From NCBI GenBank assembly GCA_946407675.1, contig CAMJPK010000005.1:1-38434 (forward strand): 38,434 nucleotides of DNA. Direction: 5' to 3'. This DNA comes from an uncultured Clostridia bacterium. GTDB taxonomy: Bacteria > Bacillota > Clostridia > Oscillospirales > Oscillospiraceae. How positions within the stretch are numbered: the first letter of the stretch is position 1; the number at the start of each line of letters is the position of its first letter. The notes below the pieces were generated by a model. The model was not told where the DNA came from, searched no databases, and was given only the letters and a program-made list of their open reading frames with translations. The position numbers were made by a program, and so were the translations under genes. Shown here one piece after another: positions 1,815 through 35,777 of this stretch.

Positions 1815-3020
1815 TTACTCAACGACGATGACATCCTGCAGGATGTAATGGAACGAGGGAGCGGACGCGCTTTCGTTTTCCGGGTATTCTTCGCGCAGGT
1901 CCCATGTGTCGCTTGGGTCGTACGGGTCGATCCCAAAGTAGTCTCCTTTAAAAACGTGGCATTTTCCATCCTTGATTTGCGCGATCGTACCTTGAATCAG
2001 CTCGTTGCTGCCCGCGGGCGCGATGGCTGGATTCAACTCCAGCATTTTCACCCAGCTCTCGCCGAAGCCGGCCCCGATGTCGTTCCCGTGCACATTTCCG
2101 GGGATCGCATCCTCGATCCGTTTCTCGTCGAGGACGGCCCCCACCGCGCCGCAGATATATGGCGCCCAGTCGATCCGCGTCCCGATCAGAGAGGTCGTCG
2201 GCGCGACGTCGATCATGTCCTGATTGTAGCCCACGTGATATACCGGGTGTCCGGCAGCGGAACTCTCGCACTCGACGGCGGGGCCGATCGTGTCGCCGTC
2301 CTGCGAAATGATCACGCAGCCCTCCTCGATCAGCGCCCTTGCGTACTCCTTTTCCAGCATATAGCTTGACCAACTGTTCGTGTATTTGAGCCGCATACGA
2401 GCCGTCGGGCAGGTTTGTCTTGCCCCGAGGAAGAAGGCGGTATATGCGGAGATGCACTCGGCGTACGGGAACGCGCCGACATAACCGAGCCATGCCTCGT
2501 CCGCGCCGATGTATCCCGCGTCGACAAGCTCCTGCAGCTTCAGCCCTGCGACGAGGCCGGTAATATACCGACCCTGATAGATCTCGCCCATGAAGGTGTG
2601 ATAATTGGGCAGGACGGGATCCTCGTTTGCGTTTTCGCAGGTTGCCTGACAGAACTCCACATCCGGATATTCGGCGGCGATGGCTTTTGCGGTCTCCCCG
2701 TAATCGTAGCTGTTGGTAAAGATGATGTCGCAGCCCTGCGCGCACAGCGCACGCAGCACGGTCTCTGCGTCCTCATAGGCCACGTTGCTTCTAACGTTTA
2801 CGCCGACCCGATCCCCGTACTGGAGCTCAAGCGCCTCAATCGCCCGAACAAAGTTTGCGCTGTAAGGCGTGCTCTCGTCGCCGATCAGGAGAAAGCCGGC
2901 CTCCGCGTGTTCTCTCCCGTGCGCGAAGTTGTTGCTCAGACGATAATAACCGAAGAAAAGCGCGATGCTGACAGCGCAGGCGAGCGCGACCCACAGCAAT
3001 TTGTCCTTCTCCTTACGCAT
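1815..3020 (-). CDS. BMP-family (basic membrane protein / Med-like) substrate-binding protein, N-terminally membrane anchored
   Basis: ~401 aa from MRKEKDK; BMP-like GFLLIGDESTPYSANFVRAIEAL..., CDIIFTNSYDYGETAKAIAAEYPDV..., YQGRYITGLVAGLK; start ATG overlaps upstream stop (ATGCGTAA). Confidence 0.8.
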   Translation of the reverse strand: MRKEKDKLLWVALACAVSIALFFGYYRLSNNFAHGREHAEAGFLLIGDESTPYSANFVRAIEALELQYGDRVGVNVRSNVAYEDAETVLRALCAQGCDIIFTNSYDYGETAKAIAAEYPDVEFCQATCENANEDPVLPNYHTFMGEIYQGRYITGLVAGLKLQELVDAGYIGADEAWLGYVGAFPYAECISAYTAFFLGARQTCPTARMRLKYTNSWSSYMLEKEYARALIEEGCVIISQDGDTIGPAVECESSAAGHPVYHVGYNQDMIDVAPTTSLIGTRIDWAPYICGAVGAVLDEKRIEDAIPGNVHGNDIGAGFGESWVKMLELNPAIAPAGSNELIQGTIAQIKDGKCHVFKGDYFGIDPYDPSDTWDLREEYPENESASAPSFHYILQDVIVVE

Positions 3021-6000
3021 CGTGCGCAGCCGCCTCCTTTTCCTCTGGCGCTTCGTCCGCATACAGCGCCTCCGTGTCGATTCCGCCGCTGTCGATCACC
3101 GCGAGAAAGAGATCCAGCAGTTCCGGATCAAACTGCGTTCCCCGGCCTTTCCGCAGCTCCTCCAGCACCAAGGAGAACGCCAACCGCTTCCGGTAAACGC
3201 GGTTTGCCGTCATCGCGTCGAAGGCGTCGGCAATCGCGATGATCCTTCCGTACAGCGGGATGTCCCCGCCCTTGAGGCCATCCGGGTAACCGCAGCCGTC
3301 ATAACGCTCATGGTGGTATTTCGCGCCCTCGACGACGTGCTCGATCAGGGTAAAGTCCTTCAGGATCTCCGCGCCCCGCGTAACGTGGGTCTTCATTACG
3401 GCGTATTCCTTATCCGCCAGCCGATCCGGTTTATTCAGGATCGAATCCGGGATGCCGATCTTTCCGATGTCGTGCAGCAGCGCCGCTTTTCGCAGGTTCT
3501 CCCGCTCCGCCGCGGAGAAGCCGAGCTTTTCCGAGATCAGCACGGAATACTCCGATACGCGCTGGGAGTGCTGACTCGTCATGGAATCCTTCGCGTCCAC
3601 GGTTTTAGCGATGGCAAGGATCGTCTCGTTGCCCATCTGGACCTGCTTCAGCGCAAGCGCCAGCTTTTCCTGCTGGGCCGCCAGCGTCCGGAGCGCCCGG
3701 CGCTTGGTCAGGAACCACGCGAGCCATCCGATGAACAGCCCGCCGACGACCAGCATGTAGATCAGAAACCACGCATTGTCATAGATGGACTTCTCCTTGA
3801 TGAAGCCATACGTGCTTTCCTCCCGCACATTTCCGCTTTCCTCGTCGATCAAGGCGAGATGAAACGTGTATTCGCCGGAGGCAAGATTCGTGTAAACGAT
3901 GCCCGAAAGATCGTTCTGCGCAACGGTTTTATAGCCGCTGTCGATCCCCTCAAGATAATAGGAAACCTTCGGATTGTCCGGAAAATAATTCACGATCTCC
4001 GGGATGAATTCGATGCTGTTGATGTCTCTGCCGATGGTCAGGCCGGACCCCCGTTCGATCGGTACCCTTTTTCCGTCCAGCTTGATCGCCGACACCATCA
4101 GACGATAGGATCGCTTCTCCGGTCGGTAGGCGTCCAGATTCATCAGGACCACGCCGCGATCCGTCGAAAGATACAGGTTTTTGTTTTTCGCCAGCGCGTT
4201 ATAGGCATTCTTCGTCAGCGCGCCCTGAAAGCCCGCTTTGGAATCCAGCAGGGTGCGGTCGGATCCCGTTCCGGACAGCAAGGCCTCTTTCCGGACGACA
4301 AAAATGCCGGAGCTCCCCAAAACGAACACTTCACCGTCGTCGTCCGGAATCACGTCGTAATTGTCGGAATACGGGAAATCGAGAATCTGCCAGATCGCGT
4401 TGTTTTCCATGTAGCACAGGCTGTTGCCCGTCACGATATACAGGATATCTGCGGCGCTGTCCCGCACGATGCGCCGCACGACGCCGGAGGGCAGGCCGTA
4501 TGCCTTTGTCAAATGGCCGACCACCCTCCCGCTTCTGACCGCGACGATGCCGTTCCCGTCGGTTCCCAACAGGATCCTGCCGTCCGGATGCTCGCAGATC
4601 GAAAGGATCTGTGCCGTGCCCAGCAAATCCCCGAACGGGATCGTCTGCACCGTTTCTGCGCCGATCAGAGCAAGTCCGCATTCTCCGCTCACGGCAATGG
4701 TGCCATCCGACAGCACTGTGCACAGATACGCCGTGCTGCCGACGCCGCTCTCTTCTCCGTAGGTTTTGATCGTTCCGTCGGGCGCAAAGCGGATCAGTCC
4801 TTTCCCGCTGCTGCATATCCACAGATTGCCGACAGAATCCGTCTGTATGCAGTTGATCGGAGTGTCGGCCAGATATACAGTCGGCAAATTACCGACGGGT
4901 TTCCCGCTTGCCAGCGCGACGGCTGTGAGACCATGCGCTGTTCCGATATACAATGTGCCGTCCTTGACGCAGGTCGACTGCACCGCCTCCGCCGGAAGGC
5001 CGGCCTCTGTGTTCACATTGGGGAAGCGGGTCTCCGAGAGCTGCAGCAGGCCGCGCGTTGCCGAGGCGAACCAAAGATTTCCCTGATAGTCGACGGTCAT
5101 CCGTTCGACGGACGAATCGAAGCCGCCGGTGTCCACGCGCTGGTATACGTTTCGGTTCAGGAGCCCGATCCCGCTGTCCGAGAGGACCCAAATGCATCCC
5201 GCAAGGAAGCTGATCTGATTGATCCGTTCCGCGCCCTCGCAGCGGATGTTGGCTGTCTCCATGGCTCTGCTGCCGACGAGCCGGTAGGTGCGGATCCGTC
5301 CGTCTGACGTGCCGGCATAGAGAATGCCGTTTTCATCAAATGCACAGGCGGAAAACCGCTCCGCGCCCTCCGGCGCCGCGACGGCGTACCGGACCGCCTG
5401 ATCCTTCAGGATATAGAGACCGCCATTCTCCGTTACCGCGGCCACATTTCCTTCCTTGTCTGCCGCAACGTACAGTCCGCCGTACGCTTCCTCCAGCGTT
5501 CTGGTAACCTTGATTCCGCTTGTGATTCGGACGACCGCCATCTGACTCGAGGTGCAGACATAGTAATTCCCGTCCGCGCTCTGCACGATGCTTCGCACGG
5601 AATCGGACGGCAAACCACTGGCGCTGTCCAACGTGTTTGCAATCTTTTCGTTGATTGCAAGCACAAGACCGTTGTCCTTTGTACCGATCCAGAGGCGTCC
5701 CTCCTGATCCACATAAAGGCAGTTGACGTTTTTCACCGCGTCGTAGCTGTCCATAAAGTGAAAACTGCTGCCGTTGTAACGAAACAGGCCGGCGTTGGTA
5801 CCGACCCACAGGATCCCGTTGTTCGTCTGCGCCACGTCGTTCGCATGACCGCAGGGCAGCGCGTTGTCCGCGTCGTACACATGCCGAAGATAGGCGGCCG
5901 CTTCGCTCGCGTTTCCGATATTGGCCGCATCGGCGGAAAGCGACAATGTCCCTGCGCACAGGAGCAGCGCGAGCGCGGCGGCGATCCCGCGCTTTATCCT

Positions 6001-6570
6001 CCGGCGTCCGCGGAGCGTTCTGCCAACCTTGATCAGACAATACAGCAGCAGCACCGTGACGACCTTATCCAGAAAGTCCAGATACAATTCTCCGACGGCG
6101 GAGGCCAAGACGCCCGACAAACCCTTTTCCAGCAGATAGTCCCGGACGCCGTCGCCCCAAAGGTTGCCTGTATTTCCGCCGTAGAGCAAAAGGTTTAAAA
6201 CGGTTGAGATCAGCACGGAGCCGATCGTCACGCCGCCCGCGAGAGAGGCAGACTTGAAAAAAGTCTCAAAGTATTTCTTTCTGGCTGCAATGCCGGTGCT
6301 GATACCGACGAAAATGCTTGTAATCCCGTAAATGAGAGAATTTGCATTCCAAAAGGAATAAATGATATTGCAGGTACAGCCGACGACGGCGCCGCTGACC
6401 GGACCCAGCACATACGCGGCAAAAACCGTTCCGACGCAATCCAGCCACAGGGGAAGCGCCAGCGCGGCGGCAAAACGCTTTCCGAGAAAATTGACAAGCA
6501 CGCACCCGAAAACGACCAGCATCGTTTTGACGGGCTCAAATTTTGATTTGTTGATAATCAGCTTTTCCAT
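3013..6570 (-). CDS. Multidomain sensor: ECF-S-like membrane domain + beta-propeller (Reg_prop) + Y_Y_Y + TM + HD-GYP phosphodiesterase
   Basis: N-terminal LPLWLDCVGTVFAAYVLGPVSGAVVG pattern; repeated LWIGT/LWVGTNAGL/LWFASATRGLL propeller blades; TM FLIYMLVVGGLFIGWLAWFL; HDIGKIGIP and HHERYDGCGYP. Start chosen at MEKLIINK (SD ggag); alternative MNRR start at 6591 overlaps TetR stop. Confidence 0.85.
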   Translation of the reverse strand: MEKLIINKSKFEPVKTMLVVFGCVLVNFLGKRFAAALALPLWLDCVGTVFAAYVLGPVSGAVVGCTCNIIYSFWNANSLIYGITSIFVGISTGIAARKKYFETFFKSASLAGGVTIGSVLISTVLNLLLYGGNTGNLWGDGVRDYLLEKGLSGVLASAVGELYLDFLDKVVTVLLLYCLIKVGRTLRGRRRIKRGIAAALALLLCAGTLSLSADAANIGNASEAAAYLRHVYDADNALPCGHANDVAQTNNGILWVGTNAGLFRYNGSSFHFMDSYDAVKNVNCLYVDQEGRLWIGTKDNGLVLAINEKIANTLDSASGLPSDSVRSIVQSADGNYYVCTSSQMAVVRITSGIKVTRTLEEAYGGLYVAADKEGNVAAVTENGGLYILKDQAVRYAVAAPEGAERFSACAFDENGILYAGTSDGRIRTYRLVGSRAMETANIRCEGAERINQISFLAGCIWVLSDSGIGLLNRNVYQRVDTGGFDSSVERMTVDYQGNLWFASATRGLLQLSETRFPNVNTEAGLPAEAVQSTCVKDGTLYIGTAHGLTAVALASGKPVGNLPTVYLADTPINCIQTDSVGNLWICSSGKGLIRFAPDGTIKTYGEESGVGSTAYLCTVLSDGTIAVSGECGLALIGAETVQTIPFGDLLGTAQILSICEHPDGRILLGTDGNGIVAVRSGRVVGHLTKAYGLPSGVVRRIVRDSAADILYIVTGNSLCYMENNAIWQILDFPYSDNYDVIPDDDGEVFVLGSSGIFVVRKEALLSGTGSDRTLLDSKAGFQGALTKNAYNALAKNKNLYLSTDRGVVLMNLDAYRPEKRSYRLMVSAIKLDGKRVPIERGSGLTIGRDINSIEFIPEIVNYFPDNPKVSYYLEGIDSGYKTVAQNDLSGIVYTNLASGEYTFHLALIDEESGNVREESTYGFIKEKSIYDNAWFLIYMLVVGGLFIGWLAWFLTKRRALRTLAAQQEKLALALKQVQMGNETILAIAKTVDAKDSMTSQHSQRVSEYSVLISEKLGFSAAERENLRKAALLHDIGKIGIPDSILNKPDRLADKEYAVMKTHVTRGAEILKDFTLIEHVVEGAKYHHERYDGCGYPDGLKGGDIPLYGRIIAIADAFDAMTANRVYRKRLAFSLVLEELRKGRGTQFDPELLDLFLAVIDSGGIDTEALYADEAPEEKEAAAHDA

Positions 6571-6587
6571 AATCGGATTTCTCCGGT

Positions 6588-7232
6588 TCATTTTACATAT
6601 CTGCTGAGGATCATCCGCTTCAGGATCATCAACTCCTGCGTCAGATCCTCCGGGTCGCCGCTTGGGTATACGACGCCCTGTGCAAAGCGCCCGCACACGG
6701 CAAGCATGATGTGCATGGTCGTGGTAAACATCGTTTGCTCCGGCTCGTCCGTCCGGATTGTCCCGTCGCGCAGCCCTTTTTCGTACAGGAAATGAAATTT
6801 CTTCGCGAACGGGAGGATCGCGCGCATATAGTCGGCAAGCTGCTCCGGCGTTGCTCCCTCGTGCGCGATGAAACCGTTGAAATCCTGATTGAAGCGCAGG
6901 ATTTCCTTGTGCTCCCGATAGAGCAGGATGTAGGCGCCGAGGTAAAACTCAAGCTCCTCCGCGGCAGTCATCATGTCGCCGCCGCGCCGGACGAATTCCG
7001 CTTCGACCTCCTCGAAATACTCGGTCCACTTCTTTGCGCCAATGGCGATCACGAATTGAAGCTTCGTATTGAAGTAACGGTACACCGTGGCGGTTCCGAG
7101 CCCGCAGGCGTCAGCAACCGCCTGCATCGGGACCGCCTCTATGCCTTTCTCGCCAAACATTCGCAAGCCCGTCTCCAGCATCCGTTCCCGGCGCTCCGCC
7201 ATTTCCCGCTCGTCTTTTTCCGCGTTTCGCAT
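6588..7232 (-). CDS. TetR/AcrR family transcriptional regulator
   Basis: N-terminal HTH: ETGLRMFGEKGIEAVPMQAVADACGLGTATVYRYFNTKLQFVIAIG; SD gggag 7 nt upstream of chosen ATG (alternatives 7238, 7268). Confidence 0.88.
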   Translation of the reverse strand: MRNAEKDEREMAERRERMLETGLRMFGEKGIEAVPMQAVADACGLGTATVYRYFNTKLQFVIAIGAKKWTEYFEEVEAEFVRRGGDMMTAAEELEFYLGAYILLYREHKEILRFNQDFNGFIAHEGATPEQLADYMRAILPFAKKFHFLYEKGLRDGTIRTDEPEQTMFTTTMHIMLAVCGRFAQGVVYPSGDPEDLTQELMILKRMILSRYVK

Positions 7233-7283: not shown

Positions 7284-7325
7284 TATATCGATTATAATAC
7301 ACTATATATCGATTATGATACACTA
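7284..7325. repeat. Two tandem 21-bp direct repeats (TATATCGATTATRATACACTA), candidate TetR operator/promoter
   Basis: 7284-7304 and 7305-7325 differ at one position; located just upstream of tetR. Confidence 0.75.
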
Positions 7326-7587
7326 TATTTTCTAAGAATCAAGAGAAAATCCATACGATATTCATGAATATCGAGAAGTATCGTCCGTGTTTTTGATGAT
7401 AATAAAGCAGACTCTATCACAATTGCTGCCATGTGACAAAGGCGCACAGCCGGAATGTTTGCCCGAAACCGAATTGTGCCATCCTCTATAAGGGGGAAAT
7501 GCTGCAAACGGTAAAATTTACCGGCTGTTTTCGTTCCGGATTCGGTCAAACTAAGGCAGAATCCAATTCAAAGGAGCGAACAATGCT

Positions 7588-20171: not shown

Positions 20172-23084
20172 ATGAAACGACTGAAGCGGCGAACATGGCT
20201 GACGGTGTGCCTTCTTCTGGCGCTGATCCTCTCTGCCGCGGTCCCGGCGCACGCGTCGTCGGCGGAGAAAAAGGTGGTGCGCGTCGGCTGGTATGAATCG
20301 GCGTTCCACCGCACGGACCAGTTCGGGCGCCGCTCCGGCTACGGCTACGAATACCAGCAGCGCGTCGCGATCTACACCGGCTGGACCTATGAGTATGTCG
20401 AGGGCAGCTGGTCGGAGCTGTTCGAGAAGCTGGTTGCGGGCGAGATCGACCTGCTCAGCGACGTTTCGTACACTGAGGCGCGTGCGGAGAAGATCCTGTA
20501 CAGCGCCGAGCCAATGGGCGGGGAGGACTACCATGTCTTCATTGCGCCCGACAACACGGAGATCCGCCCCGACGATTTCTCCACCATGAACGGCAAGCGG
20601 CTGGGCGTCAACAAGAACAGCATTCAGGAGCAGCTCTTCCTCGAATGGGCGGATAAGCACAACGTCCACCCCAAGATCGTGGAGCTGACGGAAAAAACGC
20701 CGGTGCTGCTGGAGATGCTCGCGCACGGCGAGATCGACATGCTGGTCACGCTGGACACCTACGGCAACCGCGCCGACATCGTGCCCGTCTGCAAGGTCGG
20801 CGCGGCGGAGAGCTTCTTCGGCGTGAACAAGAACCGCCCGGACATCAAGCAGGATCTCGACGTGGCGATGAACCGCCTGCTGGAGGACAACCGCGACTTC
20901 AACCAGCAGATGACCGAGCGCTTCAACAAGGCCGGCGCCGTCAACAGCTTTCTGACGGGCGAGGAGAAGGACTGGCTGAACGCCCACGGCACCATCCGCG
21001 TGGGTTACCGCGACAACTTCCTTCCGTTCAGCGACTGTGACGACAGCGGCGCGCTGGCCGGCGCGCTGGCGGACTATCTGGACTTCGCGGCGACCGCGGA
21101 GAAGAATGCGAAGCTCAACTTTGAGACCCGCGCCTATACGACCACGGAGGCCGCCCTGCAGGCGCTTGCCGCCGGCGAGGTGGACTGTGTGTTCCCGGTC
21201 AACTTCAGCGCCTACGACGGCGAGCAGCGCGGCATCATCATCACGGACGCGCTCATCTCCTCGGAGATGTACGCCGTGATGCGCTCGACCGACCACCGCG
21301 GCCTGTCCGCGGAGCAGCCGATGGCCGTCGCCTCGGTCGAGGGGCACCACAACCATGAGACCTTCCTCAAGGACAACTTCCCGAACTGGCAGATGCGCTA
21401 TTACGACAGCGCGGAGGAGGGCTTCAAGGCCGTCTCCGCGGGCGCGGCGGACTGCGCGCTGGTGAGCTCCTACCGCCTGAACAGCGTCGGCGACGCGCTG
21501 GTGAAGTATAAGCTCTCGCCGCTCGCCACCGGCGAGGCGATGGACCTGTCCTTCGCCGTCGGGCGGAACGACGACTGCCTGTTCTCCATCCTCAACAAGA
21601 TCAACCGCCTGATCCCGCAGGCCGCGCTGAACGCCTCGCTGACGAAGAATTCCTTCGTCGACACGCGCGTGACCTTCCTTGACTTTTTGCAGGACAACCT
21701 CGCCACGGTGATCGCCGTGATCGCGGTCATCGCCGCGGCGATCCTCTTCCTGCTGTGGCGCAATGTGCGCGCCGAGACGAAGGCCAGCGAGGGGCGGCAG
21801 CTCATCTCCGAGACGGAGCGCGACCCGCTGACGGGCCTTTATAACCGCGGCTTCTTCATCGCCTATGTGGAGCGGCTGTATCGGGAAAACCCCGGCAAGC
21901 CGATGGACGCCATCGTCATGAACATCGAGCGCTTCCACACGCTCAACTCGCTCAACGGCCGCGCCTTCGGCGACGAGCTGCTCCGCGCGCTCGGCAGCGA
22001 GATCGGCGCCTTTATCGACGGGGCAGACGGCATCGCCGCCCGCACCGAGGGCGACTCCTTCGACATCTTCTGTGCCCACGGGCAGGACTACAACGCGCTG
22101 CTTGAGCGTTTCCAGGCGCGCCTCAACAAGATCTCCCGCAACACGGACATCCGGCTGCGCATGGGCGTCATGCCCTGGCAGCCGGGCGTCGGCACGGAGG
22201 AGATGTTCAACCGCGCGTGGAGCGCGTGCAGCATGGTGCGCGGCGATTACAAGCGCCATCTCATGGTCTACGACGAGGACACCCGCCGCCGCGACGAGCT
22301 CAGCCGGCTGCTGCAAAACGATCTCGCCCGCGCGCTCAGCCAGCATGAATTTGAGGTCTACTTCCAGCCGAAGTACCGCATCCAGAACGACCCGCCGAAG
22401 CTCAGCAGCGCCGAGGCGCTGGTCCGCTGGAACCACCCCCAGCTCGGCCTCATCACCCCGGACGGCTTCATCCCCTTCTTTGAGCGCAGCGGCCAGATCA
22501 CCGTGCTGGACGCCTACGTCTGGGAGGCGGCCGCGGCGCAGATCGCCGCGTGGCGCGACGCCTACGGCGTGACGCTGCCGGTGTCCGTCAACCTCTCGCG
22601 CGTGGACGTGTTCGACCCGAACCTCATTTCCACGCTGGACGGCATCATCGCGCGCCACGGCCTGCGCCCCGCCGATTTGCTGCTGGAGGTCACGGAGTCG
22701 GCCTACACCGAGGACGCCGACCAGCTCATCCGCGTCATCGGGCTTTTGCGCGAAAAGGGCTACGAGATCGAGATGGACGACTTCGGCTCCGGCTATTCGT
22801 CGCTGAACATGCTCTCCTCGCTGCCGGTCGACGTGCTGAAGATGGACATCGCGTTTATACAGAACATCGAGCGCAACGAGCGCGACCTGCGCCTTGTGGA
22901 GCTGATCCTCGACATCGCGCGCTATCTCAAGGTGCCCGTCGTGGCCGAGGGCGTCGAAACCGAGATGCAGCTCAAGCTGCTGCGCGACGCCGGCTGCGAC
23001 ATCGTCCAGGGCTATTACTTCTCGCGCCCGCTGCCCCCGGCGGAGTTCGCGCAGAAGCTCCTCGCCAAGCTGCCCAAGGCGTAA
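20172..23084 (+). CDS. Membrane c-di-GMP protein: two tandem extracytoplasmic SBP_bac_3 domains + TM + degenerate GGDEF + EAL
   Basis: Signal/TM MKRLKRRTWLTVCLLLALILSAAVPAHA; two SBP-like repeats; RDPLTGLYNR...RTEGDSFDIF (non-canonical GGDEF); AEALVRW, LLLEVTESAY, DDFGSGYSSL, KMD, AEGVET, QGYYFSRP. Confidence 0.92.
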   Translation: MKRLKRRTWLTVCLLLALILSAAVPAHASSAEKKVVRVGWYESAFHRTDQFGRRSGYGYEYQQRVAIYTGWTYEYVEGSWSELFEKLVAGEIDLLSDVSYTEARAEKILYSAEPMGGEDYHVFIAPDNTEIRPDDFSTMNGKRLGVNKNSIQEQLFLEWADKHNVHPKIVELTEKTPVLLEMLAHGEIDMLVTLDTYGNRADIVPVCKVGAAESFFGVNKNRPDIKQDLDVAMNRLLEDNRDFNQQMTERFNKAGAVNSFLTGEEKDWLNAHGTIRVGYRDNFLPFSDCDDSGALAGALADYLDFAATAEKNAKLNFETRAYTTTEAALQALAAGEVDCVFPVNFSAYDGEQRGIIITDALISSEMYAVMRSTDHRGLSAEQPMAVASVEGHHNHETFLKDNFPNWQMRYYDSAEEGFKAVSAGAADCALVSSYRLNSVGDALVKYKLSPLATGEAMDLSFAVGRNDDCLFSILNKINRLIPQAALNASLTKNSFVDTRVTFLDFLQDNLATVIAVIAVIAAAILFLLWRNVRAETKASEGRQLISETERDPLTGLYNRGFFIAYVERLYRENPGKPMDAIVMNIERFHTLNSLNGRAFGDELLRALGSEIGAFIDGADGIAARTEGDSFDIFCAHGQDYNALLERFQARLNKISRNTDIRLRMGVMPWQPGVGTEEMFNRAWSACSMVRGDYKRHLMVYDEDTRRRDELSRLLQNDLARALSQHEFEVYFQPKYRIQNDPPKLSSAEALVRWNHPQLGLITPDGFIPFFERSGQITVLDAYVWEAAAAQIAAWRDAYGVTLPVSVNLSRVDVFDPNLISTLDGIIARHGLRPADLLLEVTESAYTEDADQLIRVIGLLREKGYEIEMDDFGSGYSSLNMLSSLPVDVLKMDIAFIQNIERNERDLRLVELILDIARYLKVPVVAEGVETEMQLKLLRDAGCDIVQGYYFSRPLPPAEFAQKLLAKLPKA

Positions 23085-35533: not shown

Positions 35534-35590
35534 CGATCCTTCCAAAATCCCCGGAATACGCCCCAAAAGGGGCGCGGGAAAATTGCAATC

Positions 35591-35755
35591 AATCCATAGC
35601 TCTCCGCAAATGCGACAGTCAAACGGATCTTATCCGAGCGACCAGGCGAGGATCGCAGCTTCCTCACCTTCGGCAGCGGCCCCTTTCACCCCGGCAACGG
35701 CTTTGCATGCCTTTGACACCGGTGCTACTCCTGACAACTGCGCCTCTATCCTTTC
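35591..35755 (-). ncRNA. Lysine riboswitch (L-box) aptamer upstream of dapA
   Basis: Minus strand GGATAGAGGCGCAG...GGAGTAG...GGGGTGAAAGGGGCCGCTGCCGAAGG...CTGG...GACTGTC...GGAGAGCTATGG, ordered lysine aptamer core motifs. Confidence 0.92.
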
Positions 35756-35777
35756 ATTGCAATATTCAGTTAGGTGT

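Follow-up and report, generated by a model that had tools for sequence, protein, structure and literature searches.

A proposed purine receptor built from a membrane-anchored BMP-family protein and a co-encoded ECF-S-like/propeller/HD-GYP sensor

In a 38,434-nucleotide stretch of DNA from an uncultured Clostridia bacterium of the Oscillospiraceae (GenBank assembly GCA_946407675.1, contig CAMJPK010000005.1, positions 1 to 38,434; here called the window), the gene for a membrane-anchored solute-binding protein of the BMP family overlaps the end of a gene for a large membrane sensor with an ECF-S-like domain, two propellers, a Y_Y_Y domain and an HD-GYP domain. We suggest that the BMP protein is a purine-binding co-receptor that gates the HD-GYP phosphodiesterase of its partner, acting on cyclic di-GMP (c-di-GMP), and we give this reading a probability of roughly 0.6. 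That the BMP protein serves as a co-receptor of the sensor is, taken by itself, probable. The features on which the argument turns are as follows.

1815 to 3020, minus strand: membrane-anchored BMP-family (PF02608) solute-binding protein, 401 amino acids, proposed purine-base receptor subunit
3013 to 6570, minus strand: sensor gene, 1185 amino acids, with ECF-S-like domain, seventh hydrophobic segment (TM7), two propellers, Y_Y_Y domain, transmembrane segment TM8, long helix and HD-GYP domain
3013 to 3020, minus strand: overlap of sensor stop and BMP start, ATGCGTAA; an overlap is also found in most measured loci
3033 to 3037, minus strand: GGAGG, resembling a ribosome-binding site for the BMP gene, within the sensor gene and 12 nucleotides upstream of the BMP start

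Conservation of the sensor-BMP pair

By scanning GTDB genomes with the BMP protein we obtained 145 relatives and kept 80 loci, with 48-74% identity. The contigs of two (L053 and L062) end just before the BMP gene, leaving 78 testable for the gene upstream. In 77 of these 78 the same ECF-S-like/propeller/Y_Y_Y/HD-GYP gene lies immediately upstream; since the loci had been fetched by BMP similarity, such constancy argues that the adjacency is not due to chance. The junction was measurable in 72 loci including the window: the genes overlap in 56, are at most 20 nucleotides apart in 67, and are separated by 108 nucleotides at the widest. In the window the BMP ATG (3020) lies 8 nucleotides before the end of the sensor TAA (3015-3013), giving the junction ATGCGTAA. 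A longer BMP frame, with an ATG at 3062, is available, and the relatives start instead at the position equivalent to 3020.

An even draw of 348 genomes from one Lachnospiraceae-type family contained the BMP gene in 26 and the sensor in 29. All these BMP genes adjoin a sensor (25 cases) except one that is split between contig ends (G629). A phylum-wide draw found a sensor-linked BMP in 3 of 399 genomes, and within the window's own family, where 121 genomes were searched, only the source genome has one. Hosts include Lachnospiraceae, Ruminococcus-type bacteria, Treponema, Atopobiaceae and others, mostly as metagenome bins; two pair records (L022 and L060) do not carry a metagenome-assembled genome label.

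The earlier note, made from the letters of the window, had described three packed minus-strand genes with the BMP start inside the sensor stop. The three open reading frames and the junction are as it described (BMP 3020-1815, sensor 6570-3013, and a TetR-family gene, 7232-6588, whose stop lies 17 nucleotides before the sensor start), and its assignments of BMP, ECF-S-like, propeller, Y_Y_Y, HD-GYP and TetR parts were all recovered in profile and structure searches. It also held that TetR belongs to the unit and regulates it. That part has to be given up: TetR adjoins the pair only in the window and in one near relative (L006) among the 80 loci; in the window's nearest relatives L005, L007 and L008 the contig stops within the sensor gene. 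The conserved unit is the sensor and BMP pair, not three genes. The pair itself is co-located across other genomes, as the neighbourhood comparison proposed with the note would have it. We also considered a different conserved third gene and rejected it, as the genes that recur upstream and downstream within one Lachnospiraceae group are housekeeping genes kept in synteny.

Upstream of the pair and outside the conserved unit the window holds two further features.

6588 to 7232, minus strand: TetR-family regulator (PF00440, E 5e-12), a local companion of the pair
7287 to 7328, minus strand: two 21-bp direct repeats, identical but for one base, lying upstream of TetR, read from the sequence; a possible promoter or operator

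On the other side a sodium:solute symporter (SSF) gene (347-1762) converges on the BMP gene, with no evidence for a link to the pair. A riboswitch search found none in 16 pair loci and none in the pair region of the window; far from the pair, the window contains a lysine riboswitch (35589-35756, minus strand, 77 bits).

Origin and ligand of the binding protein

The BMP protein matches PF02608 (E 5e-23, 82 bits, cut-off 24.1), and its predicted model has a two-lobe fold with a predicted local distance difference test (pLDDT) score of 94. Its attachment to the membrane, already proposed in the earlier note, would be by a helix.

2943 to 2999, minus strand: N-terminal transmembrane anchor of the BMP protein, amino acids 8-26, no lipobox

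A hydrophobic helix is predicted at the N terminus of all 74 sensor-linked BMP proteins tested and a plausible lipobox in none of them; two matches to the lipobox pattern fall inside the helix and look spurious. In a maximum-likelihood tree all sampled sensor-linked BMPs form one group (support 100/98) that nests among the lipoprotein BMPs of ATP-binding cassette (ABC) importers. Its sister, and the nearest relative without a sensor, is a BMP lipoprotein (G033) followed by an ATPase and two permeases, that is, part of a complete ABC importer. The tree thus indicates a single origin within importer proteins, and this ancestry, taken with the helix in 74 of 74 and the missing lipobox, suggests that a lipid anchor was replaced by a transmembrane helix.

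Could the BMP protein still bind a purine base mainly on behalf of an ABC importer encoded elsewhere, and adjoin the sensor only as both answer to the same nutrient? Its relatives are importer subunits and the source genome has other BMP importers. However, the hallmarks of such an importer (adjacent ATPase and permeases, a lipoprotein anchor) are absent from the window BMP and from the pair clade. No ABC gene adjoins the pair in the window, and a search of 1.15 Mb surrounding 81 pair loci found neither a BMP-type importer ATPase nor an xpt gene. The lack of neighbouring importer genes pointed out in the earlier note therefore extends to the whole clade, and the usual company of ABC permeases, which it had named as a finding that would count against its proposal, is likewise missing near the 81 pairs. 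With a clade of single origin that has lost its lipobox and is nearly always beside the sensor, we regard service to a distant importer as very improbable.

For the ligand, the closest solved relatives are informative. By Foldseek AtzT and 3S99 have the folds closest to the BMP model (E about 1e-25 to 4e-25), and they are also its nearest solved relatives by sequence; the nucleoside-binding proteins Lbp, PnrA and BmpD are much weaker fold matches (E about 1e-16 to 1e-13). The nucleoside ligand that the earlier note had thought possible is therefore disfavoured. AtzT binds guanine (Kd 0.11 uM) and adenine (2.5 uM), holding guanine between Tyr45 and Trp194 together with Ser97, Glu165, Asn218 and Asn220 (PMC6834077). 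Adenine is modelled in the 3S99 structure. We took as the signature of a purine-base binder Tyr45, Ser97, Glu165, Trp194, Asn or His at 218 and Asn or Asp at 220 (AtzT numbering). Nearly all of 99 sensor-linked BMPs have Tyr, Ser, Glu, Trp, His and Asp, respectively, at the six positions, and the same residues occur in 29 of 29 importer-type relatives. All six are among the 63 of 296 alignment columns in which at least 85% have a residue of AtzT or 3S99 (hypergeometric P 8e-5 against other columns). The signature is thus found across the clade, with the window BMP deviating at one position of six (Asp241).

Within the window's family, the relatives of importer type are lipoproteins, and most are encoded beside xanthine phosphoribosyltransferase (xpt) and an ABC ATPase. 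In 6 of 20 such xpt-BMP-ABC loci we find a purine riboswitch, with the core GACTA in 6 of 6, which we take to be of the guanine type. The source genome has its own paralogous BMP in an xpt-BMP-ABC ATPase operon (L086:1-3542), in which the neighbour is presumably xpt, as its sequence suggests. From pocket and relatives together, the ligand of the sensor-linked BMPs is likely to be a purine base, with guanine, xanthine or hypoxanthine the most likely candidates.

Sensor architecture and a proposed signalling route

The sensor gives profile matches to NCBIfam ECF_S_CD3073 (E 2e-19), Reg_prop (E 3.5e-28), Y_Y_Y (E 3e-7) and HD_5 (E 4.5e-39), and can be divided as follows.

6007 to 6537, minus strand: ECF-S-like membrane domain, amino acids 12-188, from profile matches
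5932 to 5997, minus strand: TM7, amino acids 192-213, preceded by positive charges, present in 58 of 58 sensors
4021 to 5895, minus strand: two-propeller extracytoplasmic domain, amino acids 226-850, BT3049/BT4663-like, from profiles and fold
3805 to 3987, minus strand: Y_Y_Y domain, amino acids 862-922, from a profile match
3709 to 3765, minus strand: TM8, amino acids 936-954, opening a long helix (amino acids 933-993) into HD-GYP
3118 to 3606, minus strand: HD-GYP domain, amino acids 989-1151, with invariant HD..GK, HHER..G.GYP and AD motifs

TM7, at which AlphaFold confidence is low, and TM8 would together place the propellers outside the membrane and HD-GYP inside. The catalytic and metal-ligand residues of the HD-GYP motifs are invariant in 44 sensors, and the output that the earlier note ascribed to this domain is accordingly predicted to be active. 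The source genome has 17 GGDEF and 9 HD-GYP matches, and therefore a c-di-GMP network is present. One GGDEF-domain match lies in the window itself (21819-22193, plus strand, E 7e-16).

The N-terminal domain is, on its profile matches, ECF-S-like and not a proven S component. The family CD3073 (NF045596), for which a literature search by name gave no match, matches 32 of 32 aligned sensors (best E 1e-25) and ECF_trnsprt matches 20 of 32. These scores are all below the curated cut-offs (75.5 bits against 180 for the window domain), and the profile match to a PDB structure, FolT, is only at E about 0.8. AxxxA is the motif by which ECF transporter S components dock to EcfT; in the first transmembrane segment it occurs in 8 of 58 sensors, and that of the window is at the segment's end. 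This bears on the idea that the ECF-S-like domain transports a base handed over by the BMP protein while HD-GYP reports the flux. The match of the whole N-terminal domain to ECF-S families in every aligned member speaks for it; the unconserved motif and the low scores speak against it, as does the absence of any known need for a binding protein among ECF-S proteins. Such a transporting receptor is, we think, quite unlikely.

The ectodomain is closest in fold to BT3049 and BT4663, which raises the alternative that the propellers sense a polysaccharide, as in BT4663, and that the main signal is not the ligand of the BMP protein, which would have a structural or modulatory role. Three sensors found without BMP would fit this. 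Yet the ligand pocket of the BMP proteins is strongly conserved, which is unexpected in a scaffold, and we consider the polysaccharide alternative unlikely.

The purine co-receptor that we prefer could work as follows. The BMP protein, held by its N-terminal helix at the outer face of the membrane, would close round a purine base; the liganded protein would contact the extracytoplasmic side of the sensor, at the propellers and the ECF-S-like domain; and Y_Y_Y, TM8 and the long helix would relay the change to a dimeric HD-GYP, altering its c-di-GMP phosphodiesterase activity in either direction. Pairwise distances between BMP proteins correlate with those of the propellers (0.78), the ECF-S-like domain (0.70) and HD-GYP (0.54), with partial correlations, the others held fixed, of 0.47, 0.29 and 0.00, respectively. 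The BMP and ECF-S trees have 20 supported splits in common and 0 in conflict. This agreement fits an interaction at the outer face.

Several observations weigh against the co-receptor proposal. Linked genes share their history, so the mirror-tree values leave an interaction unproven. One Treponema locus (L081) has the BMP gene and no sensor, and 3 of the 29 sensor-bearing genomes in the even draw (G526, G764 and G846) have no BMP at the threshold used, so that the sensor may work alone. In place of the His found in 92 of 99, the BMP protein of the window has Asp241, shared only with L005, and in place of the usual Gly it has Ala192; its specificity may therefore differ. The earlier view of the BMP protein as a dedicated co-receptor of a c-di-GMP sensor thus keeps its core, a conserved, dedicated pairing free of importer genes, and loses the nucleoside ligand and the TetR membership.

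A wider receptor class and comparison with known systems

In two loci (L185:3652-9706 and L187:5016-11112) an SBP_bac_1 lipoprotein gene directly precedes a gene of about 1600 amino acids with the ECF-S/propeller build, confirmed as a hybrid histidine kinase in L185. SBP_bac_1 is unrelated to BMP, and this second binding-protein family beside the same build lends support to the co-receptor idea. It is an evenly poised question for us whether ECF-S-like/two-propeller receptors form a modular class in which different solute-binding proteins can serve as the gate (BMP with HD-GYP, SBP_bac_1 with a kinase), the BMP branch having arisen once, when an importer subunit swapped its lipid anchor for a helix and became a purine sensor for c-di-GMP. 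Other arrangements occur. A hybrid histidine kinase adjoins a divergent ECF-S/propeller/HD-GYP protein in L149:3666-9564, L150:843-6916 and L152:6291-12325, with a C-terminal receiver domain on the divergent protein of L149, and in L147:2706-8507 a sensor without BMP stands ahead of another ECF-S-like HD-GYP protein, of 734 amino acids.

With the search terms used we found no paper describing the pair, only analogues, and it is apparently new. The signals of most c-di-GMP enzymes are unknown; for this receptor, which occurs in many Clostridia and Treponema of the rumen and gut, a testable class of ligand can be named, the 6-oxopurines. The pair would also exemplify a route from importer protein to signalling subunit and hints that an ECF-S-like membrane domain may take part in signalling. 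In a review of c-di-GMP networks, SBP_bac_3 is the only domain of the PBP clan to have been studied, and propellers are unmentioned (PMC8846402).

AtzT (6PI5) and 3S99 are closest to the BMP protein in sequence and fold and share the six conserved pocket positions, but they are of the importer type whereas the sensor-linked BMPs are anchored by a helix, and in the window Asp241 replaces Asn or His. The hybrid two-component sensors (HTCS) BT4663 and BT3049 likewise carry two propellers and Y_Y_Y outside the membrane; the window sensor has HD-GYP in place of a histidine kinase, and it differs further in its N-terminal ECF-S-like membrane domain and in being paired with a binding protein. XylFII-LytS, LuxP-LuxQ and TorT-TorS resemble the pair in that a membrane signalling protein and a binding protein together form the receptor, but the signalling protein is a sensor kinase and the binding proteins are of other families. 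The dCache_1PU receptors are transmembrane proteins, c-di-GMP enzymes among them, under the control of purines outside the cell (PMC11245519); there the purine binds the Cache domain of the receptor itself, in contrast to the separate BMP protein here. In NspS-MbaA of Vibrio cholerae a periplasmic polyamine-binding protein acts with a membrane c-di-GMP enzyme (PMC8967002, PMC8079147). In both systems a membrane-bound enzyme of c-di-GMP is co-encoded with a binding protein situated outside the membrane. MbaA, a bifunctional polyamine receptor, has other components, whereas here the binding protein is of the BMP family and membrane-anchored, and the enzyme has an ECF-S-like domain, two propellers and HD-GYP. 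Our best reading, by analogy, is that the pair shares the mode of action of NspS-MbaA while its building blocks are different.

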